64,000 nucleotides of DNA from Paramacrobiotus metropolitanus (Eukaryota > Tardigrada > Eutardigrada > Parachela > Macrobiotidae): the NCBI RefSeq assembly GCF_019649055.1, contig NW_026570326.1, positions 1 to 64,000 of the forward strand, given 5' to 3'. The position numbers and the translations under genes are program-made. Of the stretch, positions 24,995 to 61,872 are shown in pieces. How positions within the stretch are numbered: the first letter of the stretch is position 1; each line of letters opens with the position of its first letter. The notes beneath the pieces were generated by a model. That model was not told the origin of the DNA, searched no databases, and saw only the letters and a program-made list of their open reading frames with translations.

Positions 24995-27900
24995 TCAACA
25001 AAGCCGCAGCCAGCTTTCCACAAAGCCGGCTTGGCCAGAATCAAGCTGCGCGGTACAAGGGTTGCGAATAAGTACTTTTAGACTCTCTGGACTGAACATC
25101 GTCCAAGAGCGATACGCTTGCTTGGTTGGGGGAGATCCTTGTAGAACGCGAAAAGAACGATCATGTTTTGTGTACAAGAAGGTGTCGAAGGCTTTTGTCA
25201 GCACTGAGCTAGCCGCTTCGCTGATGGGCCATACTTTTATCGCTTGCTCCACACTCTGTTCCGTCTCGAGCGACTCAGCTTGGAGAAGCTCGGTGTCATA
25301 ATCACCCGACGCTACTTTCGTACGGAGATAGCACATCTGGTTGTAGACATCCAGCAGTAGCGGAATTCCTTCAGTCATCTCGGCCATGGTCCTGTTCGAA
25401 CAGCAGTATGTCCAGTTTGTACTGGAAAATACCAGCTTCCGGCATTCCTCCTTCGTACCCAGCAGTATTTCTAAAGTTCTGATGGTTATATCGTATCAAT
25501 CGTAAAATTACCAATTAGAATAACTATCTATCGAAGCGCAGCGATGGTCATATAGATTGTTCAAGATCATAAAATGACAAAAACGTAATGATAAAAGCGG
25601 CATTTATTAGAAATTATTACTGCAGTGCTAATTGCTAATTGCTTTCTTCACGCAATTAAATAAGCGAAAATGTTCTGCGCCCAAAAAATTCTGGGCCACA
25701 GACTCCACACTGTTACGCCCTTCCAAAAACTGCAGTAAAATTTGTTAGGTCAGCTGTTCCTCTCTATTAGTGGAAAATTAATATTGCCAGTGAATTTGCC
25801 ACCACATCTGATTGTTGAGGATTCGATATCAGATTTTTAGTTAATTATTTGCCCGTGCGTCCAAAGTGATTTTCTGACTCAGCAAATTTGAATTTGGGTT
25901 CGGAAAACTTTATGAACGCACCGAAAGCACCTTTCCTGGACAAACGACATTAAAAAAATACTCAGATAAACGTTGACCAGTAGCTGCGCTCCGGTTAATC
26001 AACGCAGCCCAGCGTTCGTTATCCATATCACTGACCTAGTGTTTTTCGGGTGCCGTCATTCATAATCATAGTACAGTATATCTGCATGTTGCTGACAGGG
26101 GGATAATATTCCAGTTCGTACCACAGGCAAATGCTCGAACGCCGGTAGGAGAGGTAGTAGTCGGGAGATCGATCGAGGAGGCAAAGAACCGGGAGAATCG
26201 TGCCGCTGTGACTATGGGAGAATTGGTCGAGCAGTACAGCACGTGTTGTGGGCGCGGTGTAGCGAAAAAGTGTATTAGCCAAGTACAACGCCTGATTGTT
26301 GTCTTGGATGTATACCAATGGAGCACCGGCAACAGCGTGGCAACACAGTGATGGTGACGACAGAACGACATCCCATCTCGAGCATGTTCTGTAGCAATTA
26401 GTTATACAAATAGTAAACATTTCGAATTTTGGAGATGAATAGCCCTATGGAAAATGCTTTGCCGGGCACATCTGAATGGCAAACGTGACCGGCAAACCAT
26501 TTAAAGAACAGTTAGCAAGCTAAGTGCAGTTAAATTCGTGGCAAATTCCCTGTACTGCTTTGTTAAACGTCGGCTCGGCCCACTTTCTTTGTTGCGCATG
26601 AGAACGTTTAATGTTGCCGCCGGCCGTGCACACGGCCCGATTTTTCTGTTGCTCGCCTTCTGATCAGTCGTGCTGACGATCTGATACGTTCAGTTTGCCG
26701 ATTTATTCCTCTACCGTTTTCGTTTAAGTCTACAGTTAGATAAGTCTACAATTCAGATTTTCATTTCCTTTGTGAAACCCACTAACGATGCCTCCATCCA
26801 CGAGAAGCAAGAAGACAGCCAAGAAACCGCGTCGTGCTGTCGGAAAACCTCGTGGAACAGCGCCCGCGAAGCGCTTGAAGAGCGTCATCGTTCGCCCTGA
26901 GCCTGCCGAAGTTCAGTTGTTGGAGCCCACTCTCCAGTCCATTTTTCAGCAGCAGCAAAACACCAGCAACAGATGGACTCGTTGATTGCCATTGTAAAAA
27001 CCAGCCACCGCAGGCCGCCCGGCCGCTTTCGCCGTCATCTAATTTGCGGATCCAGCTTGGCGACGATTTCGGAAGAATCGTGCACCAGGTGGACTCCACA
27101 AGCAAGGCAGACAATGGAAAAAAGGCGAAGCGTCGGAAGCGAGGTAAGGAAAGTGTTACCTCATCCTCCGAACAGGGTAGCGACGATGAGAGCTTGCCAG
27201 AAGACAGTGCAGTACTGCAGCGCCATGGCAACCGCCCCGATATGTTTGGCCATTCGGGACAACCTTCTACGCAGCCATTTGTCTCGGACCAGACAAATCA
27301 CCAGCTCCCGGCCATACCGGATAAAAAGCTGCGGAAGAAACTGCTGGACCTCACTGAATACGTGGATTTTGACTTGCTGCTGCGACGCAACAGAGTGGAA
27401 AAGCCCAAGAAATTGCAGTCAAATCTAAGCTTTGTGGATGGGAAGATGACCATTACCCCGGAAGACGGTAAAATCAGCATTGATTCTTTTTCATCGTGGG
27501 CAGGTGCATTTTCTGTGTTCTCGGAATATCGCATCACTGTCGCCCCGCAGTTAAGCGCTAAATTTTTCAAGTATTTGGCTATTATTGCGTCGTATGCCGA
27601 GCGTGGGGTCCCGACCGCAAACTGGCTGGAGTACGACAGGCAGTTCCGTGCATTCATGACCAGCCACCCGCGGGAGTATGAACTATGGGCGCATCAGCAT
27701 GAGGACACATACATCGACTGCATCCAGAATCCGCTCCGCAACACCACGGATGCTCCTCCACGTCACGAAAAAGAACGCACAGATGCTGGTAGTCGTCAAG
27801 ATAAAAACCGGAAAGCGGACGACAAGTGTCGCAACTGTGGTATGCCTGGGCATTTTATTAAGAGCTGCCCGCTACCGCGTAAAGGACAGCCGGGGTACGG

Positions 27901-30900
27901 GCAGCCCTTTCGGACCGCTTCCGCCGCGGACGGAGAAATCTGCCGTAACTTCAATTTCGGCGGCTGCACCACTCCTTGCAAGGCCGGCCGGCAACACTCC
28001 TGTTCGCGATGCGGGGAGTCGAACCACCGCGCAGTTAACTGCACCAAAGTTGGTACCTGAGCTGACAGTGCCGGCGAGAGCGACTACACCACTGCGCACC
28101 ACCGCTTTCGCCGAACTGCTCACTGAGTATCCTGATGCGTCAGTAGTGTCGTTTATACTGGACACGCTGGCACACGGTGCGCATATTTTCTATGATGGAC
28201 CGCAGAAAGAACGGTACACTCCCAATGCGGCAACCGCTAAGACCCACAACGCCGCCGTTACTGAATACATCACGAAAGAAGTGGAGAAAGGTCACAGCGT
28301 CGGACCGTTCTTATCACCACCTTTACCCCACTTTGTTACGAATTCTCTCGGTGCGCGGCTGAAGAAGGACGGCACTGTAAGAGTCATCATGGATTTATCG
28401 CAGCCCACCGGGGACAGCGTGAACGATGCCATTGACGTCAATAAGCTTCCGTTGGAATACTGCTCCGTCGACGATGCTGTTGCCATCTTGAGCAGCTTGG
28501 GCCGGGGCGCGTTGATGGCGAAAATGGACGTCAAGTCAGCATTCCGCCTGATTCCGGTGCGGCGCGATCTTTGGAATCTGCTCGGGTATCGCTGGAACGG
28601 ACAGTACTACTTCGACGTGGTACTTCCGTTTGGGCTACGATCTTCTCCTTACATCTTTGAGCAATTCGCAAAGATTATTGACTGGGCAGTGCGCAGAAGA
28701 AGCGGTCTAAGCTCAATGCTTCACTACGTGGATGATTATTTTTTTGCCGGAAAGCCCGGCAGTGTCGAGTGCAGCACGTGCATGAGCACCATGTCGCAAA
28801 TATGCAGTGAGCTGGGGGTCCCTTTGGCGCACGACAAGACCGAAGGACCCGCTACTCAGCTGATATTCTTGGGCATCCTGATCGACTCTGTGAGACAAAC
28901 CCTTAGTCTCCCAACCGGAAAGCAAAATGAGATACAAGCGGCTCTTGAAGAATGGTCATCTCAGCGTTTCTGCACCCGGCAACAGCTTCAAAGTCTGCTC
29001 GGAGTCCTGCAGTTTGCATCGAAGTGCGTACCAGCAAGTCGTCTTTTTACTCGCCGGATGATCATGCTGTTATCTACTCACCGGAACACCAAAATGATCC
29101 CCTTAAACTCCGATTTTCACAAGGATCTGGGCTGGTGGCGTGAGTTTCTGCCGACATGGAACGGCACCGCATCCTTTTTACAGCCGGACTGGACGCGGTC
29201 AGATGTGCTGCACCTGTACACGGACGCCTCAGCAACACATGGCCTCGGCGCTTATTGTCAGGGGGCGTGGTTTCAGCTCCACTGGCCACTGTGGATAACT
29301 GAACTGCAGCCGTGCATTGAGTATCTTGAGATGGTACCGATACTGCTGAGCGTGATCGTCTGGGGAAAGAAGCTGGCCGGCTTGAAAGTTGTCTTCCATT
29401 GCGACAATGCCGGCGCCACGCACGCTTGGGAAAACCTCAGATCAACTAACCGCGGGGTGCTGGATATCATGCGTCGCTTAGTTAAAGCCGCAGCAGTCGC
29501 GAACATGACGTTAACGCTTAAGCATATTGCCGGAATTAATAATGAAATAGCTGATGCGCTCTCTCGTTTCCAGCAAAGCCGCTTCCGACGACTAGCGCCA
29601 CAGGCAGAGCTACATCCGGTGGACTGTCCCGACATCTTTCCGGATCTCAGGGCAGCCCTCTGCCATCCCCAGAGCTGAATGAGTTGCTACAGGCTCATAT
29701 TGCTGAATCTACCCGAGCCACGTACAATGCTGCATTCAACAAGTTCCAGCAATATTGCGCGGTTAGATCGGAGGCATCCCTGCCCGCTAAGCCGGCAACT
29801 GTTGCGGAATTTGTAGCGAAATTATACGCAGATAGTAAATGTTATCGGACAGCCACGGTTTACCTTGCCGGCATCCGGAATCGCCACCGTGAATTTAATG
29901 AAGCAAGCCCCACGGACAACGACACCGTTCTTAGGGCTCTGGAAGGCTATCGCCGTCTGGCAGCGCCACAAAAGACCGGCGGCTCCCGGTGACACTGGCG
30001 CACATGCGATATCTGAAGGACGCTTTGAGAGTGGCCCGCATATCAGAGTACGAACAGTCACTGTACTGGACGACGTTCACTTTCCTGTTCTTCGGCTTCT
30101 TCCGCATTGGAGAAATAACAGCAGCCGCTACTAACCGTTTTGACCCACGGCGGACTTTGTTATGGGGGGACATAGTGGATGTTGGCCACCGCCTAACGGT
30201 GCAGCTGAAGCTCACAAAGACGGACCAGACGGGGCAGGGTAGTTCTGTCGCGCTGACGGCGACTGGACGTTCAGTCTGCCCCGTGCAGGCTTACCGGAAT
30301 TACCGTGCTCGCGTGCCCGAGCCTGCGAACGAGCGGCCGCTGTTGCAGCGCGAAGACGGCAAGTTCGTGACAAGGGCAGACGTGGAGAAGTGCCTCTTTC
30401 GCCTTCTCACGGATCACCCGGAGAGACCGGATCAGCACGCACAGTTTCCGCATTGGTGCGGCAACTACGGCCGCGGCCAATAACGTGCCTGACCATGCCA
30501 TCCAACTGGCCGGACGCTGGCGGAGCAACTGTTACACCCGCTACATTCGCCACGCTGGGCCACCCGTGCCACTGAATCCTTACCGGACCGGATAGATTGT
30601 TTGGGGGCAGTCGGGCGGAAGTGGGGATATCGGAGACTCGAACCGGTGAGGTCATCACCTGCACCTTCGATCTCGCGTATGCCGCCGCGCCGTCGACCCG
30701 TTCTTCCCGCAAACGCCCAACTCCGCTGCCGCTCGAGTGTACGGAATTTCCACAAGAATTTAAAGAACAGTTAGCAAGCTAAGTGCAGTTAAATTCGTGG
30801 CAAATTCCCTGTACTGCTTTGTTAAACGTCGGCTCGGCCCACTTTCTTTGTTGCGCATGAGAACGTTTAATGTTGCCGCCGGCCGTGCACACGGCCCGAT

Positions 30901-33900
30901 TTTTCTGTTGCTCGCCTTCTGATCAGTCGTGCTGACGATCTGATACGTTCAGTTTGCCGATTTATTCCTCTACCGTTTTCGTTTACCACCCGCCCACCCT
31001 ACATGGTGGACTTTGTTGTTATTGCTTTCGCAACTGTTATGTTACTCAATGCAATAAACGGGGGCAGTCGGGCGGAAGTGGGGATATCGGAGACTCGAAC
31101 CGGTGAGGTCATCACCTGCACCTTCGATCTCGCGTATGCCGCCGCGCCGTCGACCCGTTCTTCCCGCAAACGCCCAACTCCGCTGCCGCTCGAGTGTACG
31201 GAATTTCCACAAGAATTTAACGGATGAACCGTCCGCAGTTAATTTTGCCCACCCATAGCGTTTCGAATTTTGCAGTATCGTGAAACGCTCGTAATCAGGA
31301 TACTTTTTTCTGAGTGAAAATTTGCATGGAAATGGTTTTGTCGGAGTGTAAATTCGCATGCGAAAAAAAACAAATTTATGCTCCCGTAAAACCGCCTGGA
31401 TGCCGATATGCGGTCCGACAAACCGCTCCCGATAAAAAGTCGGCTTTGACTTCACTGTTAGAAAATTGCGGTTATATCTTACCGCCGTAACGTTCTCTGG
31501 GTAACAAGATCCAGGTTTGCCATAATCTGAAAAAGGACGTCATCCGGGTATTCATTGAATATGGCATCGTCTTTGTCGTATTGCTGAAGTCCTGTAGAAA
31601 GACATAACAAAAATAGCTGATTGGTTGGGTTCAAAATTAATTCATTTTATAGTATCCGTATATCATACTTGCAGAAATGTAATACAGAAAACTTAATACC
31701 TAATTAAAAAAAACTTGCAGTTACTGTACTTACAAAACCCGCAGTAGTGAAACAACCGCACGTTATCAGAACTTGCATACCTAACGTTTTCTGAGACTGT
31801 AGCCATCGAGGGAAGAAATCCATTCTGCGCCACGTTTTCATGAACCACGAAGTTTCAGCAATGTCTAGAAAAGCACGCATATTTTATCGGTACTTCTATC
31901 TCATGCCGATGTATGATGTTTCTGAAGGGCTTCCAACACAAACTCTCTGCTGTCAAAGTTTGCCTACTGAAAGCAGAAAACCAGACAAACAATGTCGGCT
32001 AGACAATCCGTTTAGGTAATTTTTGCGTAATTCCCATTAATTTTGTCCAAAATGGTTCTTGAGCGCGGTTTAACTACCGTAGGTGGCTCAGCGGCCCTTC
32101 AAGAACTACTCGTACATCGCTTAATTTTTCACAATAATACTGCCATCCCCCTTCCAATGAAAATGAACGCTTACAACCCTTCGGGCAAAAATGTACACAG
32201 AAAAGGCTCACCGACATCAGGCCGATTAACACTTCATCGACCGACACAATGTCGACTGCACGACGTTGACCGTCTTAGTCTTCGCGCGACGAAGACTAAG
32301 AATACATGAGGGAAACTAAGTAACCGACGATACTCGTTTAAGAAATCTTAAAAACTTAAGAAAACATAAGAAAATCTAAGTAGAATAAGGAAACTAAGAT
32401 GACCTAACAAACGCTACCTCGTCTTTGTGACGGTTCGATGTCGTGCCTGTTCGACGTAGAATCGGTCGACAAATTTCCGTCAACGAAATCGAGTCAACAG
32501 TTTAACTGTCCGATTGCCCATTGAAATCTGGGTGCCTTTACGTTTGTTTTAAATTTCACTGCTAGCGCAGCATACCATGAAAAGTACCTGATTGGGCGAA
32601 GAGAACTCTTCTGTAGCGTGTCATATCGCTTCTGAAACAGGTGTTCAGGAATAATGTGAATGTATGAAAAACCAGACGATGGAATTTTCTAGGTGCACTT
32701 CTGACATGTTGGCGACACAACACCGTGATGCCATCAGCGTTAGAAGCTAGTAGTAAGGTACCGGTGTAGCGCAGCCAGCACAACTTCAATCCGACGTCCA
32801 GTTGATTTAGCCAATATGATAACGGTGTCACCGGAAACGGACACTTTTTTTTACTGCACGCTGCATGACGCAGTGTCAGTTTGAAAAATGTATCCTTGGT
32901 CGCCGACGTCCAGTGGCGCTGTTGGCGAATCCGTATTTGACAAGCGTAATCTGGATAATAATCCATCTTCACCGCCACCAGTTGGGCAGCGATGGCCGAC
33001 GGGACGCGTGCTAGTGCACAAACCTCCTCGTTAGGATTCCGACATTTATCACCATACTGCGGTACAAATACCAGAAATCTGGCACTGGTCCAGGTTAGAG
33101 GCTGATTTCTGTAAAACCAGTGCTATTCAGAGCAGAATGGAACTTTTTGACACGCTACGATGTGGAATAAAACAGAATGGAAACAGAAATAGAGGAAAGA
33201 GTGCAAATACTTGAAAATACAGTGGAAAGGGTGGTATAATAAAGTGGAGATAGTGGCATACAGTAATTAAAATGTAACAAACAGTGTGTAAATGGAGGAC
33301 ATCTAATGCGCATAAATCGCCAGCACTGTGGTTTACAGAGAAGCGCTTGTTGTCGCGATAAGCGTCAAACATGTAGGCTGTCGCGTACAGTACAGTATAC
33401 AGTATGTATGTATATATCTATATGTATGCATATGTATGTGTATGTATGTGTATGTATGTGTGTGTGTATACAGTATGTATTCGACGTACTTAATATCTGT
33501 ACAGTAGCAGCATTTCCCTTAATGACAGCCAAACTAAAACGTTGCTTGATAAAAGCAGTAGAACGCGCTTCTCCAGTTAATTCCCGAGTTGTACGGCCCC
33601 TAAAATACACCATTTCACTTCAAGCTGGGCCGAAAACACCAAACGTTTCAACAACTAACCGATAGAAAAGGTGTTTACTTTCCAGTGAAGAGTGTTTCCG
33701 TCGCTTTGCATTTTCTGCCAGATGACCCACACTTCCTGCCTGAATAATTACAACGGCCATGGAGTCCTCTGACCATTTATTAACACATTAACCATTTGCT
33801 AAAATAGAAGCGATATAAAATAGTTACGAACAATTCAATTATATAGCTTAGCAGTAAAGTAAGTACTATGTACATTGCAGGATACCTAAGGCTACAGACG

Positions 33901-35688
33901 GCATAAATCGAGAAAAGGGGGCATCAAGCACAGTAATCGCTTATAATTGTAATAAACACAGCAAATACCACAGCTAACTACTATCTGTTTTTCCCTAATT
34001 TTCAAGGCGTCTTACCGTGTGTCGGCTTGCAGCATGTTTGAAAATGAAACGCACTTTTTTGCAGAAAACAATACTCCAACGCGTTTCGACACTTGTTCGA
34101 CAGCCTAGTGTTTTGCTTTGCGATATCAAATCGATCGAACTTCCGGTTGCTTATCGGGCAAAATTGTGATACAGGGCAGGACAGGTCTGCATGCTTGCGC
34201 TAGCGCGTGCTTGATGCAGTCGTCGCCTGTCTAGCCAGACGAAGATACTTACTGTAAACTGTACTGTGCGCTACATTGCCTTTAAACCCACGGGCGCATG
34301 GCGATTTTGGGTGTTTTTTTAATATTTAATTTTTAACCGTAAAGGAGTGTGCCCGCGCTTGCCCTTTTTGCTGTTTTTGCCCAATAAAACCAAATTCTGG
34401 TGTCTTATTAAATATATGACAATAATTGACTGCTGAACGCTGATCACTAATAGATTGTTATCCAACGCTACAAGTGCCAGAAACTGAAAAAGTGGTCAAA
34501 GCTTCTAAAAGGTAGACGATGTTGCGTTTGCTAGTAAGTACTTAAAACAAATTTCTTGCTTTTTCTTTTGTTTGCGCTTTGAGCTAAACGATATTTTTAT
34601 CCTTCCCCATTAGCGCTGCAATTGCTGCCACTACCAATAGTCCAATACTGTTACTACCATTACCAGAACAGTGCCATTCTGGCTACCACTAATAGTACCA
34701 GTATCATTGCGTAGTACCACTACCAGTACCACTACTAGTAACAGTAACATTTATTAGTACTACCCGAAATATCGAGCTATTTTTAGGTTTCATTGTAAAA
34801 ATTTCACAAACAAAGGAAAACTCAAAATACGTCTAAGATTTATTGAAGTATAATACGTACACAATGAAGATTTATTGTTTAAGATTTATTGTCCATTGAG
34901 TTGAATCTCAACAGTCGCACGTTTCGCGTACTAATTTTTTAGCTGACCCATTGAAACCATTATTTTGGTTTTTAACCGAAATCAAAACGATACAAATAGT
35001 GCTTTGGGGTGTGCCACTGTCTCAGTGGATCTATTATAAAATCGGGACCATGCACATGTACCGGGACATTTCCTAAACGTCCAAAAAGTAGCTGCGAGAT
35101 GAGATGAATCAAAGAGTTTCATCATCAGGTTGATACAGATATAGCCAGACTTTGGTATTTGCCATCAACAACTTCTGAATAAATTGGCAGGGCCAATTTC
35201 GAATCACGCACTGACTAAAACTTAATTTAAATTCCAGTGCTGAATTCCAGTGATGAAATTTAATTCCAGTGCTATTATAATGTTTTCTGGCTAGCTACAT
35301 TTTATTACACTCAGTACCACTGGAACTACATTTCATCACCGAGCTTTATTGTGTTGAATATTAACACTGTATTTATAGTTATGTGTACCAGAAAAATGGC
35401 TTACATTGCCGTCCTGATTAGAACTTCCACCTCCACGTTTTCCCGGTGTGTCCAGCGGCAGTAGCGTTCCCCGGCATGCTTCTTTATCGGTAGCACGCGG
35501 ATGTCCGCGAAATCTACACACTGAACCGACTGTTCAGTGTGATGAAAGTCGATCAGAAGCCCCTGGTCCATAACATCCGTCACGTATCCTCGATGTATAC
35601 CATCACTGGTAACAACATCCACCACGAATTTATCGTAATATACCGAGAAATACAGCCAATCCTTGAGAATCTTCGGTAGATTTGCCAT
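24995..35688 (-). CDS. F-box gene 1: intact five-exon F-box protein
   Basis: Exons in transcript order: 35405-35688, 32588-33108, 31483-31591, 26036-26388 and 24995-25470. Each junction is GT-AG, every phase agrees (2, 1, 2, 1) and the product is 580 aa with no stop. Exon 1 has a module I call N1 (GYVTDVMDQGLLIDF) shared with the three paralogues here. Exon 2 starts with a second segment (WTSARFLVFVP) like one in the paralogue at 60771. The F-box spans exons 3-4: YPDDVLFQIMANLDLVTQRTL, then RRTCSRWDVVLSSPSL, matching the LPxxLLxxIxxxLxxxxLxxxxxVCxxW pattern. The C-terminal part (KLVFSSTNW, then LLLDVYNQM) aligns weakly with the paralogues. F-box proteins bind SKP1 and bring substrates to SCF ubiquitin ligases. 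Intron 3 holds a 4.7-kb retrotransposon; intron 2 holds a MITE. Confidence 0.7.
26501..26726 (+). repeat. Split direct repeat A1 (5' terminal)
   Basis: 226 bp, identical by eye to A2. Forms the left end of the retrotransposon, and the shared sequence stops at CGTTTA. Confidence 0.9.
26788..28060 (+). pseudogene. gag: gag of the Ngaro-like element, frame-broken
   Basis: An ATG at 26788 opens a basic N-terminus (KKTAKKPRRA). The frame stops at 26985, and the body continues in other frames to 28060, with breaks near a CAG run (about 26950) and an A5 run (about 26997). The body has a capsid-like helical region (SWAGAFSVFSEYRITVAP, then WLEYDRQFRAF) seen in DIRS-order gags. A CCHC zinc knuckle (CRNCGMPGHFIKSC) and a second Cys/His cluster ending CSRCGESNHRAVNC follow. 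These would package the element RNA. Whether the breaks are decay or read errors is open, because the terminal repeats are identical. Confidence 0.75.
27678..29678 (+). CDS. pol: Reverse transcriptase-RNase H of the Ngaro-like element
   Basis: An open frame of 666 codons overlapping the end of gag in a different frame. The protein-like part starts at about 28100, so expression probably depends on frameshifting or reinitiation. RT motifs run from about residue 210: FVTNSLGARLKKDGTVRVIMD, AKMDVKSAFRLIP with the first catalytic Asp, LPFGLRSSPYIFEQF, and LHYVDDYFF with the YVDD catalytic pair. RNase H follows from about residue 515 with its acidic residues in YTDASATHG, IEYLEM, HCDNAGATHAW and NEIADALSR. 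No protease or methyltransferase is seen. The frame is intact throughout. The gene makes the DNA copy of the element RNA. Confidence 0.85.
   Translation: MNYGRISMRTHTSTASRIRSATPRMLLHVTKKNAQMLVVVKIKTGKRTTSVATVVCLGILLRAARYRVKDSRGTGSPFGPLPPRTEKSAVTSISAAAPLLARPAGNTPVRDAGSRTTAQLTAPKLVPELTVPARATTPLRTTAFAELLTEYPDASVVSFILDTLAHGAHIFYDGPQKERYTPNAATAKTHNAAVTEYITKEVEKGHSVGPFLSPPLPHFVTNSLGARLKKDGTVRVIMDLSQPTGDSVNDAIDVNKLPLEYCSVDDAVAILSSLGRGALMAKMDVKSAFRLIPVRRDLWNLLGYRWNGQYYFDVVLPFGLRSSPYIFEQFAKIIDWAVRRRSGLSSMLHYVDDYFFAGKPGSVECSTCMSTMSQICSELGVPLAHDKTEGPATQLIFLGILIDSVRQTLSLPTGKQNEIQAALEEWSSQRFCTRQQLQSLLGVLQFASKCVPASRLFTRRMIMLLSTHRNTKMIPLNSDFHKDLGWWREFLPTWNGTASFLQPDWTRSDVLHLYTDASATHGLGAYCQGAWFQLHWPLWITELQPCIEYLEMVPILLSVIVWGKKLAGLKVVFHCDNAGATHAWENLRSTNRGVLDIMRRLVKAAAVANMTLTLKHIAGINNEIADALSRFQQSRFRRLAPQAELHPVDCPDIFPDLRAALCHPQS
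29684..30575 (+). pseudogene. YR: Tyrosine recombinase of the Ngaro-like element, frame-broken
   Basis: Three consecutive frames make up one recombinase. 29684-29992 holds the N-terminal SAM-like core-binding domain (ESTRATYNAAFNKFQQYC). 29989 to about 30435 holds the first half of the catalytic domain, with the first Arg in FFGFFRIGEI. From about 30440 the original frame returns with the His-x-x-Arg box (HSFRIGAATT) and the Tyr nucleophile in TRYIRH. The first break is at an A4 run near 29970-29975 and the second near 30430. All catalytic residues survive but not in one frame. The enzyme would integrate the circular DNA copy. It may be inactive, or the breaks may be read errors. Confidence 0.75.
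30603..30763 (+). repeat. Split direct repeat B1
   Basis: 161 bp, identical by eye to B2, and directly abutting A2 (the overlap is TTAA). Confidence 0.9.
30760..30985 (+). repeat. Split direct repeat A2
   Basis: 226 bp, identical by eye to A1. The 74 bp between A2 and B2 (30986-31059) are unique and contain the AATAAA signal. Confidence 0.9.
31060..31220 (+). repeat. Split direct repeat B2 (3' terminal)
   Basis: 161 bp, ending AGAATTTAA, after which F-box gene 1 intron sequence resumes. Confidence 0.9.
32233..32473. mobile_element. MITE copy 2, in F-box gene 1 intron 2
   Basis: A 241-bp segment with imperfect inverted ends of about 42 bp (GTCGACCGA, GTCGA, GCACGAC and CCGTC blocks in the same order on both arms). 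The interior is rich in AAGAAA/CTAAG. Same family as 7745-7913. Confidence 0.6.
33398..33480. repeat. GTAT/TATG microsatellite
   Basis: An imperfect tetranucleotide run (GTATGTAT, TATGTGTATG) ending in a GT run. Lies in F-box gene 1 intron 1. Confidence 0.85.
34610..34765. repeat. ACC/ACT-rich trinucleotide-like tract
   Basis: A degenerate tract of ACCACTACC, AGTACCAGTA and TACTACC words, probably a decayed microsatellite. Lies in F-box gene 1 intron 1. Confidence 0.6.
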
Positions 35689-40700: not shown

Positions 40701-40712
40701 CGTCCGGGCATC

Positions 40713-41696: not shown

Positions 41697-43528
41697 TCAG
41701 TTGCTGTAGGCCAGCAGAAAATATCGGCTGATGCGCGACAGTTTCTCCACCTGTAAACCCTTCGGTCCGTCCACGCACCACTTCTTGCCGCGATAATGCG
41801 CCGAAGAACGCGGATCTTCTGACTGCGTCGCACATAGCATCTATAAAAGCAATCAAAGCTTAAAGTATTTTGCAGCTACACAGGTTCTCAAAATGGATCG
41901 GTGAACTGGCAAATCTTACCTTGCGCATATAGTTTTCTATCTGTACTGTACTTTGGTCTTTTCAACCGAACGGCATGACAGCTGCTGTAGCTGATCGTTC
42001 ACTTCCCGAATCCTTGCGTCAGTCAGTACCGGCAGCGCCGCGTCCAACGCGTCCCACAAAGCGCAGTGAAACCCATCGTTATTTGGCGGCCGCGCTGAAC
42101 GAATTCTCGCCGAAAGAAGGTCAGGGTCGTCCAGGTGCACACAGCAGTTGGTAAGGCGGATCGTACCACAGGGCAGACTACGGCAAACTGCCATAAATCG
42201 CGATAACAAATCAGGATCGCGTTTCTTATTCCACCCGTGGAAAGCTGAGTCCATGGGATGCAGGGCACAGCCGGCGACGACATCTTCATGCAAGCAGCGA
42301 TTAATCTTCAAAGAAAACCCCAGTGGATTAGCGAACTGCTGACTTCCCAGTCGGATTCCAGGCTGCTGGTTCGCCACGTAGCGGATCATTTCGCACAGCG
42401 CCATGATGTCTTCCATGCACATGGAGTTGCGTCGACCGTTAATCACAATGTGCCGAGTGCCAGGACGCAAGCAACTGTACAGCGTCGCAAAGCACAAGAA
42501 TTCGCTGTATCGGTACGCATCCTTGGAAGGCAGGCAGTCTTCGACCACAACACGACCGCGCAGCGCCGGTATCTCCATCAAAGCGTTCCATGCTGGGCAT
42601 ACCGCACGCAGTCTCGACTGTGTCGCCGTGTCCAAATACGAAAAACACTTCCAGCCACAATTCCACCGGCAGCGCCAGCTCCTCACATGGTGTAGCGGCA
42701 ACGCTAGGCCATATATCTTCGAGACTCCTGAGCAGACAACCCACGAAAAAATTCTTTTTCAACCTGGACATCGCACAATTTGTATAACAAAGCCGATTAA
42801 ACCACACAAAAAACTCATGCTTACCGGCGAAGTTTTCATGTGCTCCGTCCAATAAGCTGTTTTAGACAGCCAAGACAGGTACTCCAACTGTCCATCCCAG
42901 AGATTCACGATGCCATCACGACATTGTGTGTCATAACAATAAGAGAGTTGCGAATAGTAGCTGGGCGAATATAACTGCTTGATGAACGCTGTTGCTTCTT
43001 GGGAAGAAATTGCGCGAAATCTGTCGTCGAGCTGCATCGTATCCTTAAAAAAGGTCCCTGTACAAATATGACCTGATGATATAGCATCTTCGTCATCCGC
43101 AGACCGCTTGTTTCTCATCATCCGACGCTGAGCGAGCGCTTTCTCCACTGGCTAGCGAAGGCGTTCGATGGGGAAGAAATCTGTACACGACGCACCGTTG
43201 TCGCATCGTCGCCAATGGACGATAGCCCCTGCGTATTGCTGGTGCGTAACGTTGCATCCGAAATGGCTCGTTTCACCGGGCAACCAAATCCACGGTCCCA
43301 ATGGCGTCTCCGGTACACAGAACTGACGGAACGATCTCTGTCGTATCTCATCAACTTCTTGTTCAGCTGGAAGACGCTGTGGTACGGAACATATTCTCGT
43401 CTTCGGTTGGGACAGAGCAGATCAACGATTAGAATGTTTTCGGCCACGTCCACTACGCGCGCGTATCGCATCATCCCGTCGTCGTCCAGAACGTCCACGC
43501 TGGTTTTACGGCCCATTCCGCTCGGCAT
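41697..43528 (-). pseudogene. F-box gene 2: frame-broken paralogue
   Basis: The ATG at 43528 opens the N1 module (ARVVDVAENILIVDL) found in the other F-box genes here. A second conserved segment (KDTMQLDDRFRAISSQEA, about 43005-43055) is shared with the paralogue at 55-60 kb. The F-box starts LPVELWLEVF in one frame and continues SYLDTATQSRLRAVCPAWNAL in another. The break is at a run of five A/T at 42641-42645. Phases at the intron before it also fail to agree. The C-terminal exon 41697-41840 (HYRGKKWCVDG, then VEKLSRISRYF) is clearly homologous to 55009-55180. Either the gene has decayed or two indels are sequencing errors; a corrected version would be an F-box protein of about 600 residues. 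Confidence 0.7.
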
Positions 43529-44293: not shown

Positions 44294-46410
44294 TCACTTT
44301 TTACCCATTCTGAAAGATTTTTTAATTTTAGTCGGAGTATTTGTCACATCGCTAAGTCCGCTACGAGTGTTTCTTTTTCGCTTATTTTTCTGCAGCAATT
44401 TTTCTGCTTCCCGTTGCTCGAGCGCTGCGATTACTTTACTGTCCGTCGCAATAAGCCCTGCTTCGGCGCGCAGACGAGAATCTTTAAGTTTTCTCTTTTT
44501 CTGAGGATGAGCGCTCATGAAATTATGGTGCCAATCTGCAGCCACTTTGTCAGCTGCAACCGATGGAAGAAAACCTTCTGCTTTAGAGATTGTGAACGCC
44601 ACAATCTCTTCTATCTGTCCTTCAGTCAAAAGTGGAATTTTTCGAAGATTTGTGCGTATAACTTCCAGCTCGCTCACGTATACGGTGGCAACAGAAATGG
44701 GAACGTCTGATAGAAATTGGCTTGGAACAGGCTCTACGTAAGCTCGGCAGACCGCATCCGGGTTGAACGGATAGATTCCGGAAGAAGCAAACCCTGAAAT
44801 AATATTGGCGGCCATGTTAAATTCATCCCATTTTTTCACAAGGTGACGAGCGAAGTTTTGTTTGTTAACCTACGATCAAATTTAATTTTTGGATTAATTT
44901 ATCAGATTTATTTATTAATTAAAATTAGCATAAAAAATGAAAATACCTCTTCTTCAGCGATAAGGGTCATCAGTCGCAAATAATCCCGCCAATATTTTTT
45001 AACAGGGCCGTACACCTTCAGATCCATGGGTTGCAACTTCCCGGTCTGACCAGACGGCAGTATGACAACGGTAATATCTTTGTCAGACTTCATGCACTCC
45101 GATAAAAACTCCAGATTGAACATATGAGAGCTGTGCCCATCGAGAAAAATAACATTCTGAAAAAATACACAATATTATTATTTTTCAACATTAATTTTTT
45201 AATAAAATGAAAGAAATTTATGACAAATAATTTTTTAAATTTTTTTAATAGAGTAAAAGAAAACACGCACTTTTGCTGCCGTCATTTTGGGGATGACTTC
45301 TTCTCTGATATATGAAGTGAAAGTTGAATTATCCATCACGCCTGACGAGTTAAAGCCAATATGACATCTGTCGTCTGTGCCGTCAAAACGAGAAGCAAGG
45401 AAAACTTTGCCGTCAAATAAAATTAATGGTCGCAGAATTTCTCCAGCCGCATTGCCGCCCGCCAACACCGTGATTAGTTCGCGGTCGTTACCGTCATAGT
45501 ACGAAAGGACCTCCTTTACCCCCCGCTTGGCGTATACCGTCGTCACTTTTTCCGCTACCTGGAACGCTGACTCGTCAAAATTCCAGATTCCTGCAGGATC
45601 AAGCAGCAGGCCCTCGGTATTAAGCTCACTCAATCGTTGTATCCAACCCTCCCGATTCTCCACGGTCCACTCTTTAGCCTTTTTTCGGGAAACGCTGTGT
45701 GAAATTCGCTGAGCAATTTTCGGGTGCCTTTTAAGAAATTCGCGATGCCAGTATGACGAAAACATCTTTCGATTTTTGGGCACATCTGTACAAGGTAAAA
45801 TTTTTGTAAGTAAAAGAAAAACCAGTAACGTACAAATATTCTCACACTAACGTCACTGAATATTCCGTCAGAAACGGACGCATTCAATTTAAAAATTAAC
45901 CAATATAAATAAATGCGATAACAGTCAATAATTTAATTTAATTTTACAGGAATAATTTTAAATCTCATTTTAGTTACCTTTATATTTGGTCAGTAACGGC
46001 ACAATCCGCTTTAAAAATCTTTTATCCAGAGGGATGCCGTTCTCCGCACATTTCAGCAGCAGATTTTCGATGTAGTTTTCTTCGGCTTCCGAAAATTTTC
46101 TCATATGTGCGCCTTTCTTTTCCGTACGCACGCCCTTCAGTTTATTCCAGAACGAAGAGTAAGGAACCTTGTACTTTTTCGCTGCAGCGTACTGTGACAG
46201 GTTCCCCGTTCTACAAGCCTTCAGCGCCAAGGCCATACGATCATCGTACGCTGCTGGTAAAGGCACGTCGCTGGCAGGTTCCTCCACACAATTCTCACTC
46301 AACGGTAGGCCCGAAACAACGCTGATACTCGCGCAAGAAATCTCCATCGCAGGTGCAGAAAACAAACTGGCAGGTAGCCGTACGTCGGTGATATTCTCAT
46401 CGTAGTACAT
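44294..46410 (-). CDS. pogo/Tigger-type DDE transposase, intact, four exons
   Basis: Exons 45978-46410, 45271-45785, 44947-45156 and 44294-44869. All junctions are GT-AG with phases 1, 0, 0 and give 577 aa without a stop. Residues about 50-85 are a psq-type helix-turn-helix (LALKACRTGNLSQYAAAKKY) for binding the element ends, followed by a CENP-B-like DNA-binding region. The DDE domain has its first Asp in GIWNFDESAF, the second in VIFLDGHSSH and the third in LQPMDLKVYGPVKKYW, with about 38 residues between the last two by my count. GFASSGIYPFNPDAV, typical of this family, follows the catalytic core. A basic tail (KKRKLKDSRL, NKRKRNTRSG) is likely a nuclear signal. The transposase is spliced, so it would be made only in eukaryotic nuclei. 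A domesticated gene is unlikely because the TIRs are intact. Confidence 0.88.
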
Positions 46411-46679
46411 CTTGCCAGATGAATCTTATTAATTATTTAGATGGTAATTTTATAACATTATTATCAAGAGCTTGGTTAATTAATGTCAGTCACTGGTTAC
46501 TGAAAATTTTGCGGAGAACCAATTATAAACAAAGTTAGAAAACCAAAACAAAACTCGCATTTAAATTTTAATGCGAGTGTGCGTTACAGTAAATAGCAGG
46601 CCGTGTTCAGCTAACGGCTGCGTGACGGCGCGCGGCTACCGCCAGCCTAAGGTGGCTGACAGTGTTGCACAGCACGCAA

Positions 46680-46739: not shown

Positions 46740-46884
46740 TACAGCAGTTTAACCCACCAAAGTCAGCTACCTGAAGGAGTGCGAATAGCGATTTGAAAAT
46801 TGGTGTTTCGTAACGAAATAATTTGATTAAGGAAAATTAATTTTTTGGGAATTTTCGTGACCATAGGTCAAGCACGGCGATAGC

Positions 46885-55008: not shown

Positions 55009-55868
55009 TTACACTTTTGACCAATATTCAGCCTGAACTTCCATGAGAAAGTGCAGGGCCATGCGCGACAGTTTCTCCATCTGCAGATCGTTCAGGCCGT
55101 CGACGCACCATCTCTTCCCGCGATAATGCGATGCCGGACGCGGATCACTGGACTGCACGGCACACAGTATCTGCAAGGAACCAGCTACAGTTTCAGCGAC
55201 TGCTTATCAGTTTGCCATTAAGAAAACGATGCCACAAACCTTTCACCTTTCTTACCTTACACACGACCGTTTTGGCATTCATCTGAGCTGTTCCTAACGG
55301 ATTGACAAGTCGTGCCAACCACTGCGTCAGCGGTGACACATCTTCCGCACGTGAAACTGACAGCGTCCCCTCCAGCGCGCTCCACAGTGTGCAAGCGAAA
55401 TCGCCACCCAGTCTGATGGACGCTGCAGGTATTGCTAGCAATAAAGAGGTCTCATATGAATCATCATCAATGTAACGAGAAATCGGGCTGTGCAGTTCGT
55501 CAAGCGAAGAACATCACACGGCAGATCGCCAAATAATTCAGCAAAATCCTGCAGGCGTGAGTAACCGCCTGGCGGGGAGTACTTGGCCTTCTGTCGGTCA
55601 GATTCATGCTGCACGCACACGTTCCATTGCATATGGTCCAGAGCGTAGTTGATCATCAACTGCAACTGGCAGCCGTTCCGGTGGAAGGTGCTCAGTCGGA
55701 TTCTCGGGCGATGCTCAGCGACGTGAAGGATCATGTCCGGCACTTTCAGCATGTCATCCAACGAGGGATACCAGCGATTACCGGCCACTATAACTCGTTT
55801 CGTGCCAGGACAAAGGCGCTTGTAGATAGCGGCCAAGTCAAAGTAGCAGTCGTTTAATACTTGTTATT

Positions 55869-58800
55869 CTTGATTAAACTTTTATAATACATCATCTAGA
55901 AAACCAAAAACAGTTCATCAAGGGAGCGACTATACTCAACTGTACCAAGAACACAGGCAGCATTGCCCCGCTGAATTTCTAAACTGCAACGCTGCAATAA
56001 AAACTGTTTCGCACGGATTTCTCCAGTCTGCTCCCGGATACGTTTGGCCAGGTCCGAAATAAAACCTTGAGTACTCGGGCCACAACCTCCAAAAGTTTCG
56101 AAAGCCAAAGGCTGGACAATGTACCGATCTCTCAACTTCTCATACTTTCCCAGTTTTCGAATCTCAGCGGCTTCCGCGGCTGCGCCAGGGTGATCAGAAG
56201 TTTGACCGATATAGGTTGCCGCAAGCGTGTCAGCTACAGTGACATCCCACACTAAAGATTTTCCATATTGCCAAGGATACAAAGTCATGCCATCCGGCCG
56301 CTTTCCAGTTTCCCTATCAAGACCAGGAGGTTCCAAGATGGCGGATATTTTAGCTGATCCGAAAGCCCGCTGAATTATATTGTTAAGCGCGCTGTGGCGC
56401 CGCAGCCGTCCTGCACTTTTCTTACAGGAAAGACCATGATGACCGTATCTATCCACCATTTCACCACAGCGGCATTTGTGCTCATTACAAATAAAAGCAC
56501 CCAAACGCAAAGCCACAGCCACTCGTAAACTCACGTCATCCAGGAGATTTCCCAAGCTGGACACAGGCAGCGCCGACAACCATGCAGATGACTCTTTCGT
56601 AGACAAGGCCAACAAGCGAGCTTTAGCAATAACGTCGGCATTTTCCACTAAGAGACGGTGCATCTTGTCGTACATCAAACCGGTCCAAGCTGACTGCAAA
56701 CGGCGGCTCTGCAGAGGCGGTGGGTCTTCTCCAATTTTTTCTTGATAAACCTTGACCGCATCCTCTCGAGAGTTTTGATCTGAGTCAGGTAAAATCTCAT
56801 TGACTAGAGAATCTGTAGCGTAACACGAAGACAGAAACGCAGGCAAAGCTATATCTTCTGCCGTGCAAAGGCCGATTCCCCCATAGCGATCAGGCAAAAT
56901 CGCTTGCCGCCACACAGGTTTGGACATTTCCACATTTGTTATTTCTTCTGCTCTTTTTCTGACAGTATCATCGAACTGGCGTAGTTTTTCTGGACACTTC
57001 CAACACGGGGCGCACCTAAGAGTAAACAACAATCTCGGCAGCGAAAGACTGTTTTTCAAAAGGAACAATGACTGATGCGCTGGCAACACACCAAGCAGAT
57101 CAGTCAGACGCCGTATCTGACCGATCTTTCCATCTAACACTCGCCCTATTGCCAAATCCGTCAGTGGGGCACCAAGCAGGTCCAACTGCTCCGTTGAGAC
57201 GAGCTGTATCTCCGGTGCAACAGAATGGAAACTCTCCACAACATCCAAACGTTCATTTTCTGTGCCACCAAAAACGTACAGTTCACATTTGGCCAAGTTC
57301 AGCTGCAAGCCCAATGCGGATGACTTTTCTAATACAGTTACGAAATCACCCAATACGGTATCCGGATCCCCGCCGCATGTACCATCGTCCAGAAACCAGA
57401 TATTCAAGGCTGCTTGTAATTCTTTGGACAAAGTATCAGACACCAAACAAAATAGCAGAGGTCCAAGGGGATCCCCTTGCTGGATACCGTGGGCAGAGGC
57501 TATAATCTGGTCTCCACAGAACAAAGATGACGGCGTGCTGTATGCCGCAGAGATAAAGGCAAAATATTCAGGAATTACTTCGGCGACTTTATTCAGCAAC
57601 ACATCTCTGCGGACAGTATTAAACGCATTAGCAAAATCAAGTTTCAACAAAACCTGAACTTTTGTGGAGTCGCTCTGAACAAAATGTCGAGCAGCATGCA
57701 CCGCCGCCTCGGCTCCTCCACGTGTACCATAACCAAGCTGCACGGGGCGAAATAGTTCTCCCATTTCATCATGAACACGACGACTAATGACTTTTCCAAA
57801 AAGCCGCCGCAAGGTGCAGCCGCATGCTATTGGACGAATTCCTCCACTCTTCTTCAAAAGTGGCGTCAACATCCCACCGAAAAACACCCTTTTAGCCGCC
57901 GAAGGTATGACACCAGTCAGAGCCAGATTGGCCAACTTGGACAAGGCCGTCAGCAGAGACTCTCCGGTTTCTCCCGGGACACTAACCATCTCCTTCAAAT
58001 GCTGCGGCCGAAGACCATCTGGACCAGCTGAAGAGCCTGCAGGAAAAGATCTAACAGCGACAAAAATCTCGTTCGGAGAGACATTGTGAGTTACAGAATT
58101 GACGTCACAGACCGTTGTATCCAGATCCGCTGGTGGATCTGGATGTTTATCACGTAGCGCTTTAATAACGTCATCCGTCAGCGAAGCAACTGATTCTTCA
58201 GACGTCATCACTTTAACCGCACCACTGATGTCGCCATCCTGCAGTTTGGCGTTGACTAATTTGCGTAACGTTTCATCAGAGGACTTCTTCTTGCTAGCCC
58301 TGATCCTAGTAGTATTGAGCGGAGGGGAGTCTGAAGGTGTGCCGCGCAAGTTTGCCTTCACAGAAGCGGATAAGGAAGGTCCTCGCCCAGCCTTAGCAGG
58401 AGGTGCGTGCAGATTCTCGAGCGGAAACAACAACAATTTGGCCCAAGACTCCTCGTCATTCTTGTTACACACATCATTGACTGCAGCCGTGTAAGATTCA
58501 GCGCAAGCTCGCCTTGCTCCCGCTGGAATGTGTCGAAGAACGGGGTGCTTTTTCCTAGCTGCAAATATGCGGGCTTCGATGGTCTCTGAAACTACTGCAG
58601 GAGGGGATGGTCCAGGATGTTGTTGAGCTTGGCGGAGGTTCTTCGCTTGAGCAGTGCGACAACTATCTGAGGCTCGATGTCTACTCAAGCCGTGTTTTGT
58701 CACACACACTTTTCCACAGAGATCACAAACGAAAGACATTATTACAGTTCATATTCCAAAAATATATTATCATTATAACAAGTATTAAATAAATACCGCC

Positions 58801-59150
58801 GCGAGAAATAAAAATTGATTGAATGTTGGTTAATGAAGAAGAATATAGGACAGGGAACAAGAGCCAGGAGTACTGAGGTGTAAGAATTTAGGCCCTTTAA
58901 CCGAACCAGTTATTTGGCGTTCAAATACGGATTGCTATTAAAACTGACAATGACAATCTCGGATGAGAAGGAGCGAAAGGGACAGGAAGAAACACAAGCA
59001 CTAAACGGCATCGCGTATCGTGTACCGATTTGACGTACTCGCGCAGCAGGACATCATGATCTTTATTCGACATAATTCATACCAAAAAGGAAAAAATACC
59101 AGCAGGAAAGCAGATCGTTGACGATCGCGAATAACTTTGAGCCATTCCAG
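55869..59150 (-). mobile_element. Non-LTR retrotransposon with restriction-like endonuclease
   Basis: A single-ORF LINE inserted in F-box gene 3. The 3' end lies only about 30-40 bp after its stop codon, and F-box coding resumes immediately. The 5' end is inferred from loss of F-box homology near 59150, so the 5' leader is about 400 bp and its limit is approximate. A 13-bp inverted match (TAATACTTGTTAT at 55855-55867, ATAACAAGTATTA at 58775-58787) may be chance. No poly(A) tail or clear target duplication is visible. Confidence 0.8.
55896..58739 (-). CDS. LINE ORF: zinc finger, reverse transcriptase, restriction-like endonuclease
   Basis: 947 aa from the ATG at 58739, uninterrupted. Residues 5-28 form a C2HC finger (CDLCGKVC ... 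HRASDSC) for DNA or RNA binding. RT motifs occupy about residues 230-480: PAGSSAGPDGL, IRPIACGCTLRRLFGK, LLKLDFANAFNTV with catalytic Asp, IQQGDPLGPLLFCL, and WFLDDGTCGG with the catalytic DD pair, where FLDD replaces the more usual F/YADD. Near residue 770 a CRCG-HHGLSC Cys/His cluster precedes an endonuclease core (KRPDGMT ... WDVTVADT), matching the PD-(D/E)xK-like endonuclease of the R2/R4/NeSL assemblage. Elements of this group nick DNA and prime reverse transcription at the target. I cannot assign the clade. The full ORF suggests it could be functional. Confidence 0.88.
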   Translation of the reverse strand: MSFVCDLCGKVCVTKHGLSRHRASDSCRTAQAKNLRQAQQHPGPSPPAVVSETIEARIFAARKKHPVLRHIPAGARRACAESYTAAVNDVCNKNDEESWAKLLLFPLENLHAPPAKAGRGPSLSASVKANLRGTPSDSPPLNTTRIRASKKKSSDETLRKLVNAKLQDGDISGAVKVMTSEESVASLTDDVIKALRDKHPDPPADLDTTVCDVNSVTHNVSPNEIFVAVRSFPAGSSAGPDGLRPQHLKEMVSVPGETGESLLTALSKLANLALTGVIPSAAKRVFFGGMLTPLLKKSGGIRPIACGCTLRRLFGKVISRRVHDEMGELFRPVQLGYGTRGGAEAAVHAARHFVQSDSTKVQVLLKLDFANAFNTVRRDVLLNKVAEVIPEYFAFISAAYSTPSSLFCGDQIIASAHGIQQGDPLGPLLFCLVSDTLSKELQAALNIWFLDDGTCGGDPDTVLGDFVTVLEKSSALGLQLNLAKCELYVFGGTENERLDVVESFHSVAPEIQLVSTEQLDLLGAPLTDLAIGRVLDGKIGQIRRLTDLLGVLPAHQSLFLLKNSLSLPRLLFTLRCAPCWKCPEKLRQFDDTVRKRAEEITNVEMSKPVWRQAILPDRYGGIGLCTAEDIALPAFLSSCYATDSLVNEILPDSDQNSREDAVKVYQEKIGEDPPPLQSRRLQSAWTGLMYDKMHRLLVENADVIAKARLLALSTKESSAWLSALPVSSLGNLLDDVSLRVAVALRLGAFICNEHKCRCGEMVDRYGHHGLSCKKSAGRLRRHSALNNIIQRAFGSAKISAILEPPGLDRETGKRPDGMTLYPWQYGKSLVWDVTVADTLAATYIGQTSDHPGAAAEAAEIRKLGKYEKLRDRYIVQPLAFETFGGCGPSTQGFISDLAKRIREQTGEIRAKQFLLQRCSLEIQRGNAACVLGTVEYSRSLDELFLVF

Positions 59151-59529
59151 GGACCATTATCCAGATTCTCCTAAAAAAATCAGGGAAACCTTTGATGACA
59201 AGAGTGGCAGTGAGCAACGGCGACTCCACGATATGGTTCCAAAAAGTGCAAACCGCGCTCAGTCTTGTCTGTGCTACTGAGTCCACCTGGGAAAACACCT
59301 CCAGCAACACTTCCGCCGGAAGCAACAGTTCCTCCGATACGGACGTCCGACAGTTTCTCCACAAGTCGTTCGACTCTCTCGAATATTCTATCAATTCCCG
59401 ATCGAGGGAATCCAGTTTGTCCTGCAAGTGGGCCAAAATGATAGAATCGGTAAACCAACAAGTCAACATTGGTGACTTTTAGTGTTGCCGCAAGTGCTCG
59501 AAATTGCATGTGAAAGAATTTCGATACCA

Positions 59530-59562
59530 CGCTTCTTAAAAGTCACTGACTTTTAAGAAGCG
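59530..59562. repeat. 33-nt near-perfect palindrome
   Basis: CGCTTCTTAAAAGTCA faces TGACTTTTAAGAAGCG with a single central C. It lies in the intron of F-box gene 3 just upstream of its F-box exon; a partial arm (GTGACTTTTAG) is also near 59473. Confidence 0.85.
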
Positions 59563-60039
59563 TTGTGAATCAAAAGAAAACTTTGGGTTTTTATTAGACA
59601 CAGAACTCCTTACTTTAGGGTAACCGTAATCTTTGGCCTTATACTGTATATATAATGCAGTCGGCCATCCACGAGATCTACAGCGGAAAGTGACAGATGA
59701 GGACGACCGGACTTTCCCTCGTTAAGCCGCTTGATTAACACTCTCGCATTTTCGTCAGACACGGTGCGAAACTCGTCATCCAGCTCCACACAGCTTTTCA
59801 GCAGGTCTCCTGGCCTGATGCAGCTGTAACCGTCCTTCCACGACCAGCGAAGGCGGCTCGAGGGGACAATGTCCGTCCAACGTAGAGAAGCTGAAGACCT
59901 TTCCGAACGGGTTGAGTTCGCGTTCTCTCCGGGAACAGGGAAACTCGACGAAGAGTCCGCTATCGGTCACGTCCACAACTTGACCGAAGCACATGAAGCC
60001 ATCGTCGCCAAGAACAACTACGCCGTTAGTATTCTCCAT

Positions 60040-60770: not shown

Positions 60771-61872
60771 ATGTCGGAACAGGTCTCCATGTTCCATCTC
60801 AATGCCTACAAAGCCAGCGCCGTATGTGTGTTGGATAACACCACGCAGCTGCTCCAACACGGCGTCATCATCGCCATCCGCGACGATGCCTTCTTCGTCG
60901 ACTTTGGCTCGGCGAACCGCCATGCGGAACGCGTCGCTGCCGCGGACTGTCGTTTCCCGGCACCGTACCGGATTCCATCTTGGCCGCACATCGGCGAACC
61001 CGTGCAGGTGCTGCACCAGCGTACCATCGGCGACCCGTGGTACTGGTACCCGGCGACAGTGCTGGTGTGTTCCTCAAGTATGCATAAAGGCTGGCATCTG
61101 GTGGAAATCGGAGTTGGAGCCGACAGAGTCCGTGCTATAGTTCCTTCTACCCGGACTCAACGAGTGGCACCCGGCGATGTCAAGTTTTCGTTTGCCAAGT
61201 GGGACGAAGAGCTAAACAGACTCGCATTTGATACTGCGCGGGAACTGGAGCGTCGGGATGAACGATTGGCGGAGGCGAAACTTTTACCGGTAAGTGCAAT
61301 CTAACGGAGTAGTCTACTTCGACCTTTCTCGAACTTCAACACTCTGTACGAAATTCAAAACGCAAAACTTGTTGTTTTTTGGAAACTGCTTTTGCAGCGT
61401 CGGTTCGTGAAACGTGTTGCGCATAAAATAATCAAATTTCGTGTACAAAGATCTAAGCGGGCAATTTGGTTGTGCGCTTTTCATATTCGGGTAAATTCGA
61501 AGAACACCAAGTATTTGAAGAGTATACCGATAAGACCGTAGCACCCGTGATTTTAACGACTTACAGACGGAACCCCGGCCAGAAATAGTAGCGCACTCCG
61601 AAACGGCTGCTCCTGGCATCAATGCGGCACTTCCGCTGGAACTTCTGGCGGAAATCCTGTCGCTGGACATCGGGAACCGCTGCAACAGCTTCCAGTGGCG
61701 CCGCGTGTGCCGACTGTGGAAAGCGCTGGTGGAATCGCCCAGCGCCTGGCAGCGTGTGGTGATGGACCTGGCAACGTACGACAGCTTCCAGGACGCCCGT
61801 GTCGCCATGGTGGTCAACGAAGCCCAGCGTCGCGGTGTCCGTACGCTGCTGATTACTGGTACTGAAACATAG
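60771..61872 (+). CDS. F-box gene 4: shortened F-box protein
   Basis: Exons 60771-61289 and 61567-61872 (donor ACCG|GTAAGT, acceptor TTACAG|ACG, phase 0), 274 aa. Exon 1 carries the N1 module (GVIIAIRDDAFFVDF) followed by a second segment (IGEPVQVLHQR, then WYWYPATVLVC). In F-box gene 1 these two are split between exons 1 and 2. Exon 2 has a canonical F-box: LPLELLAEILSLDIG, then WRRVCRLWKALVESPSAW. The protein stops just after GVRTLLITG, the point matching KRVIVAG/RHIVING in the paralogues, so the C-terminal 200-300 residues of the family are missing. It may be a truncated but stable SKP1-binding protein, or further exons may have been lost. Confidence 0.75.

Follow-up and report, generated by a model that had tools for sequence, protein, structure and literature searches.

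What is the module that precedes the F-box in the proteins encoded by the first 64,000 nucleotides of contig NW_026570326.1 of the tardigrade Paramacrobiotus metropolitanus (assembly GCF_019649055.1; the window below), and is the family that carries it a local one? An initial annotation, made from the letters alone, had recorded four loci here with a related N-terminal module and an F-box, and had considered the module unrecognised and the family local. The segments that it quoted, GYVTDVMDQGLLIDF, ARVVDVAENILIVDL, GQVVDVTDSGLFVEF and GVIIAIRDDAFFVDF, all lie where it had placed them. Comparing the window with the single assembly of which it forms 64 kb, we found that the module is, by profile comparison, the head known from fragile X proteins, a tandem of Agenet (Tudor-type) domains, and that the window appears to hold four members of a genome-wide family, two of them intact and two apparently broken.

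Identity of the N-terminal head

The relatedness of the four segments was borne out by a profile combining the head of locus 4 with 20 heads from elsewhere in the genome (21 in all, FMRP excluded), which found loci 1, 2 and 3 at E values of 3.5e-10, 4.5e-14 and 8.5e-11. When PDB was searched with this profile, the six best sequences were 3kuf (FXR1, 3.9e-9), 4ova, 4qvz and 4qw2 (FMRP, about 3e-8), 3h8z (FXR2, 6.1e-8) and 2bkd (FMRP, 7.3e-7), and the seventh, 7aoi, followed after a gap at E 0.19; both barrels were in register with the FXR proteins. Indeed, hhalign of the family heads against the genome's own FMR1 gave a probability of 96.5 and E 7.9e-10 across both barrels, and Agenet2 alone ranked FMR1 first of 1000 among FMR1 and its 999 shuffles (E 2.1e-4). 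In Pfam, the head of locus 1 alone matched Tudor_FRX1 (Table 1), as did two more heads of the locus 1 type (2.9e-7 and 3.6e-6), and the heads of loci 2, 3 and 4 alone had no match at E ≤ 1. By Pfam, PDB profile and hhalign, the module called unrecognised is thus the FMRP/FXR tandem Agenet head; it is a known domain, but one from fragile X proteins and not one known to be F-box-associated. The initial annotation had been right to read a small Tudor-like barrel in two parts at the N-terminus, and right also that there are many paralogues, some of them broken.

The family proteins are, as far as their domains can be read, not members of the fragile X family, because KH1 and KH2 are absent where looked for: no KH_1 was present in the 21 heads, in 12 F-box exons or in the two spliced window proteins (for locus 1, the first 422 of 580 residues). 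Across the whole genome the Tudor_FRX1 model gave 20 matches at E ≤ 1, and the best of them (L003, C5:3433812) is a protein with Tudor_FRX1, KH0 and KH_1, which is, judged by these domains, the true FMR1/FXR ortholog of this genome and separate from the F-box family. At least 610 codons of this gene are open with no stop, so that it apparently has no introns there. A more distant family member (L007, on C114) also matched Tudor_FRX1 (1.1e-4), with its head at 748-1674 (-) and a downstream F-box on the same strand at 163-270 (-), E 8.1e-6.

Copy number, fusion to the F-box and constraint

Three protein queries were run against the genome, and the best 150 of 447, 861 and 1075 candidates, respectively, were scored. 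Merged, these best 150 per query represent at least 385 distinct family loci on 97 contigs, and not a local family; at least 366 of them are firm because, of the 150 matches scored for the first query, the 19 weakest lie above E 1e-3, and more are expected because even the last entries of the second and third lists have E below 1e-17. On these matches the copy number is put at several hundred or more. In a rough tree of 47 Agenet1 pieces, drawn without support values, the window loci fall in three subfamilies: one contains locus 1 together with the neighbouring copy outside the window, C54 and C209, another includes loci 2 and 3, and a third includes locus 4. The window is therefore a sample of the genome-wide family.

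The head precedes the F-box in one frame, as read from several sets of loci. Among the best 150 of 997 F-box candidates scored in the genome, the same strand had a listed F-box-like match in the 3 kb downstream for 24 of the 150 loci of the first query; an upstream match was present for 3 and one on the other strand for 5. For the 385 merged loci the corresponding numbers were 57, 12 and 11. In samples taken by rank, 26 of 28 loci had an F-box exon on the downstream side in the same orientation: 15 of 17 in sample 1 (every ninth locus of the first query list, read by eye) and 11 of 11 in sample 2 (every thirteenth locus of the second list). An F-box profile trained on 14 of the 15 F-box loci of sample 1 found the fifteenth (L024) and all 11 of sample 2 (E 2e-17 to 4e-5), and had no match on the opposite strand in either sample; Pfam F-box models matched 11 of 12 F-box exons at E ≤ 0.1. 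In 12 of 13 genes a GT at a codon boundary marks the end of the head exon, and in all 13 the F-box exon opens at a codon boundary just behind an AG, which is support and not proof because the sites were chosen by eye and an AG within TAG also closes a frame. In splice models, which were built for loci 1 and 4, head and F-box stand in one spliced protein at both loci, and the F-box of locus 4 is over the Pfam cutoff.

Comparisons of 13 exons between close paralogues, heads among them, gave ratios of nonsynonymous to synonymous substitution (dN/dS) of 0.09-0.47 by the NG86 method over whole exons; the values are rough, most dS being above 0.5 and one reaching 1.45. The compared exons therefore behave as working coding genes under constraint. 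Positive selection among paralogues, which the initial annotation had raised, left no sign in these 13 comparisons at the level of whole exons.

As to the C-terminal region, no Pfam family besides the F-box recurs in the 12 exons, and a PDB profile search returned F-box proteins only, the best being FBXL3 at 0.001.

Predicted function and alternative explanations

We propose that the family members serve SKP1-CUL1-F-box (SCF) ubiquitin ligases as substrate receptors, in which a fragile-X-type head and a variable C-terminal region capture the targets, and we would give this reading a probability of about 0.72. From known F-box biology, the F-box would dock on SKP1, for which the genome has four gene matches, and would present the captured target to CUL1, where it would be ubiquitylated; the head would serve in recognition or co-assembly, and the divergent C-terminal region would offer a further surface for recognition. 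Excerpts of PMC5430443 report that the FMRP head binds methylated Arg/Gly-rich proteins and FXR proteins, that its residues 1-200 pulled down FXR1 and FXR2, and that F32L and Y96L weakened the binding of FUS and LSM14A. Judging from the FMRP/FXR head, the likeliest ligands of the family heads would be methylated Arg/Gly-rich proteins or the FXR proteins themselves.

Several results weigh against this reading. Two of the 28 sampled loci (L021 and L023) had no F-box in the fetched DNA. Agenet1 alone, from the compact subfamilies, placed FMR1 tenth of 1000 against its shuffles, which is not significant. A profile of locus 1-type exon 2 had no match in PDB and did not find the genome's own FMR1 either; against the Agenet2 region of the family this exon gave a weak profile match (E 0.0022, probability 13). 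Only 2 of the 21 heads scanned singly in Pfam had weak Agenet matches, the best at E 0.019, and it is therefore understandable that the initial annotation found no named class for the head; the FXR Tudor model was listed for none of these 21, although locus 1-type heads do match it, and domain libraries thus largely miss the heads of this family. Structure prediction and Foldseek, which the initial annotation had recommended, agreed in rank and fell short in significance: an AlphaFold2 model from four rows of window sequences only had a mean predicted local distance difference test (pLDDT) score of 51.7, with about 80 in Agenet1, and with this low-confidence model the FMRP heads 4ova and 4qvz were the top two matches at E 0.01, none was at E ≤ 0.001, and the third was an unrelated restriction enzyme. 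At the position of FMRP F32, 20 of 21 heads carry F, whereas at that of Y96 none carries Y (2 have W) and the genome's own FMR1 has I, so that the head would retain the barrels and half of the pocket. Finally, a KH0 after the head looks convincing by eye but is not established: alone against FMR1 and its 999 shuffles it scores below the shuffles, and the locus 1-type exon 2 lends it no match either; the tandem 21-head profile does extend into the start of KH0, to FMRP residue 153-154.

The same architecture could be explained by decoys, or innate-immune receptors, whose FXR-type head baits foreign proteins that seize FXR and whose F-box destroys the binder, an arms race raising the copies. Alphavirus nsP3 binds the FXR head, which we count in favour of this explanation, and a large clustered family with broken copies would suit it. 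Innate immunity is also the published guess for the F-box expansions of Caenorhabditis in passages of PMC8665587 and PMC12680543, and the latter extends the thought of defence against foreign proteins to the expansions of worms and plants. The lack of positive selection at the whole-exon level argues against decoys, and we regard them as possible but unlikely. The fragile X head is a handle seized by viruses, and the family might even be the animal counterpart of plant integrated decoys, in which the copied head would bait foreign or selfish proteins that take over RNA granules and these would then be degraded; this we hold to be rather doubtful.

The proteins might instead regulate the cell's own FMR1/FXR granules, the head co-assembling with FMR1 and bringing FMR1 or its partners to the proteasome. 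The pull-down of FXR1 and FXR2 by the FMRP head, the retention of FMR1 in this genome, and the finding, in part of PMC5688124, that mammalian Fxr1 is a substrate of SCF-Fbxo4 are in keeping with such a role, but hundreds of copies are hard to reconcile with one conserved target, and we consider it improbable. Some members could also be antidotes of selfish toxin-antidote elements, like the F-box KSS proteins of Caenorhabditis tropicalis, and Caenorhabditis F-box expansions are described in sections of PMC8665587 and PMC12680543 as supplying toxin antidotes; the constraint on the sampled pairs (dN/dS) speaks against this, which makes it very unlikely. Least of all do we expect the head to be a non-FXR Tudor-type barrel that converged on a similar pattern, since, for all the low identity of the genome's own FMR1 to the top sequence of each head alignment (23%, 24% and 17%) and the rarity of Pfam matches for single members, FXR proteins fill the first six places in the PDB search with the gap from 7e-7 to 0.19 behind them, both barrels are in register and hhalign gave 7.9e-10.

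Comparison with known systems

The proposed SCF substrate receptors with a fragile-X-type head can be set beside four known systems. With the N-terminal domain of FMRP, FXR1 and FXR2 (4ova, 3kuf, 3h8z) the family shares a pair of Agenet barrels that agree in order and register, as well as the F at the F32 position in 20 of 21 heads, and it differs in that KH1 and KH2 were not found, the Y96 position is not Y, and an F-box follows. The F-box-FBA2 and F-box-FTH expansions of Caenorhabditis likewise comprise, within one animal, hundreds of clustered F-box genes that arose by duplication (as described in parts of PMC8665587); here, however, the added part stands before the F-box and is of known cellular origin. 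FBA2 and FTH had no match in the 12 F-box exons at E ≤ 0.1, and the family is, on that comparison, not one of Caenorhabditis-type F-box-FTH or F-box-FBA2 genes. In SCF-Fbxo4 acting on Fxr1, an SCF F-box protein is also linked with the fragile X family (PMC5688124, in part), but receptor and substrate are two proteins, whereas both parts would be in one chain here.

As for the mode of origin, the nearest precedent would be, by analogy, the A2 family of Caenorhabditis, composed of a transposase helix-turn-helix (HTH), an F-box and FTH, in which an N-terminal domain was captured before the F-box and expansion followed (excerpts of PMC12062965). The captured piece is a transposase HTH there and the head of a conserved RNA-binding protein here, and the words 'Tudor', 'Agenet' and 'tardigrade' are absent from the main text of PMC12062965. 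Among the open-access papers listed, no title or abstract opening reported a fusion between a fragile X head and an F-box, and the pairing looks new. The head of an animal RNA-binding protein would have been joined to a ligase receptor and then copied hundreds of times. To our knowledge, little is known of the ligands of most recognition parts in F-box expansions. In this family one recognition part comes from a known source for which structures are solved and ligands measured, and therefore it becomes possible to test directly what such a fast-growing F-box family seeks.

Gene structures and other features of the window

F-boxes are visible in loci 2, 3 and 4, and that of locus 1 is split by an intron and becomes visible after splicing (Table 1). 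Locus 1 is intact, as the initial annotation had it, with five exons, GT-AG at every junction and an open joined frame of 580 codons for 580 residues; the first seven splice sites were placed by reading, and the last acceptor is the sole one scanned between 25990 and 25430 that leaves the frame open. Its spliced protein matches Tudor_FRX1 (2.1e-4) and F-box-like (2.3e-4), both slightly under or at the cutoff. Locus 4 had been thought shortened, but a third exon, which the initial annotation overlooked, completes a gene of three exons with in-frame GT-AG joins and 405 residues. Breakage of the other two loci, also claimed at the outset, is supported: locus 2 is, by its reading frames, broken, because Agenet2 directly neighbours Agenet1 without sharing its frame and a stop codon comes after them, and locus 3 looks broken, because past Agenet1 its sole further match is weak (E 0.054) and adjoins in another frame, Agenet2 is missing, and a reverse-transcriptase frame lies between the F-box and the C-terminal remains.

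Table 1. Positions of the family features in the window (family profile: 20 heads from elsewhere in the genome and locus 4)
Feature	Positions	Strand	Evidence and remarks
Locus 1 exon 1, FXR-type Agenet1	35405-35688	-	PF18336 Tudor_FRX1 E 1.5e-5, 25.2 bits (cutoff 25.9); donor GTAAGC
Locus 1 exon 2, region occupying the Agenet2 position and following segment	32588-33108	-	Conserved with copies L034 and L035
Locus 1 exon 3, first half of F-box	31483-31591	-	PF00646 E 0.062 for the exon alone
Locus 1 intron 3	26389-31482	-	GT-AG and frame; 5.1 kb; splits the F-box; holds a reverse-transcriptase element
Locus 1 exon 4, second half of F-box and C-terminal region	26036-26388	-	Sequence match and splice frame
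Locus 1 exon 5, C-terminal region up to stop	24995-25470	-	phmmer with L035 exon 5, E 2e-19; frame-keeping acceptor
Locus 2, Agenet1	43330-43528	-	Family profile E 4.5e-14
Locus 2, Agenet2 in a different frame from Agenet1	43155-43421	-	Family profile E 2.2e-5, positions 69-122
Locus 2, F-box and C-terminal region	41940-42758	-	F-box profile 3.1e-11; F-box and C-terminal profile 7.1e-24
Locus 3, Agenet1	59878-60039	-	Family profile 8.5e-11
Locus 3, F-box	59080-59478	-	PF12937 9.8e-8, over cutoff
Retroelement between F-box and C-terminal remains of locus 3	55899-58748	-	RVT_1 8.9e-20; frame of 950 residues, about 2.9 kb
Locus 3, C-terminal remains past the retroelement	55196-55863	-	C-terminal profile E 0.0029 (55196-55513); 55435-55863 placed by eye
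Locus 4 exon 1, Agenet1, Agenet2 and following segment	60771-61289	+	Frame and GT-AG junction
Locus 4 exon 2, F-box	61567-61858	+	PF12937 1.6e-5, over cutoff; 1e-5 in the spliced protein
Locus 4 exon 3, C-terminal region	62864-63270	+	C-terminal profile 1.6e-6; frame and GT-AG
Fifth family fragment, part of Agenet2	10617-10874	+	Family profile 1.8e-6, positions 64-106

A relative of locus 1 (L034) starts 1.7 kb beyond the end of the window on the opposite strand, with an exon 1 that is 84% identical and with all five exons matched. By eye, a broken piece like the C-terminal part of locus 4 was seen at about 70.4-71.2 kb (L034 6376-7178, C106), and the cluster therefore continues past the window end. 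Just beyond the coding parts of loci 2 and 3 lies a stretch that is alike by eye (about 41.75-41.85 kb and 55.05-55.2 kb, minus strand), as expected if the two are duplicates. Elsewhere in the assembly, a primer designed for Paramacrobiotus spatialis (PMC8816950) agrees at 20 of 22 bases with a gene read by eye as RPB1, in keeping with a probable Paramacrobiotus origin; against this, the reversed primer, used as control, had 3 matches with at most 3 mismatches, and the partner primer was absent from the 3-kb locus. One of three lipocalin hits proved to be an ordinary fatty-acid-binding protein and was uninformative on the origin.

The element inside intron 3 of locus 1 is a retroelement at 26879-30483 (+), with RVT_1 at 27660-29675 (E 7.8e-14). 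A tyrosine-recombinase-like frame, of DIRS/Ngaro type, was noticed in it by eye only, and Pfam returned nothing in 29935-30480. The retroelement of locus 3 has a zinc-finger-like motif at its N-terminus and is R2-like by eye. A broken DDE transposase, pogo/Tigger-like by eye, is present at 44297-46425 (-), where DDE_1 matched at E 0.0078, below the cutoff.

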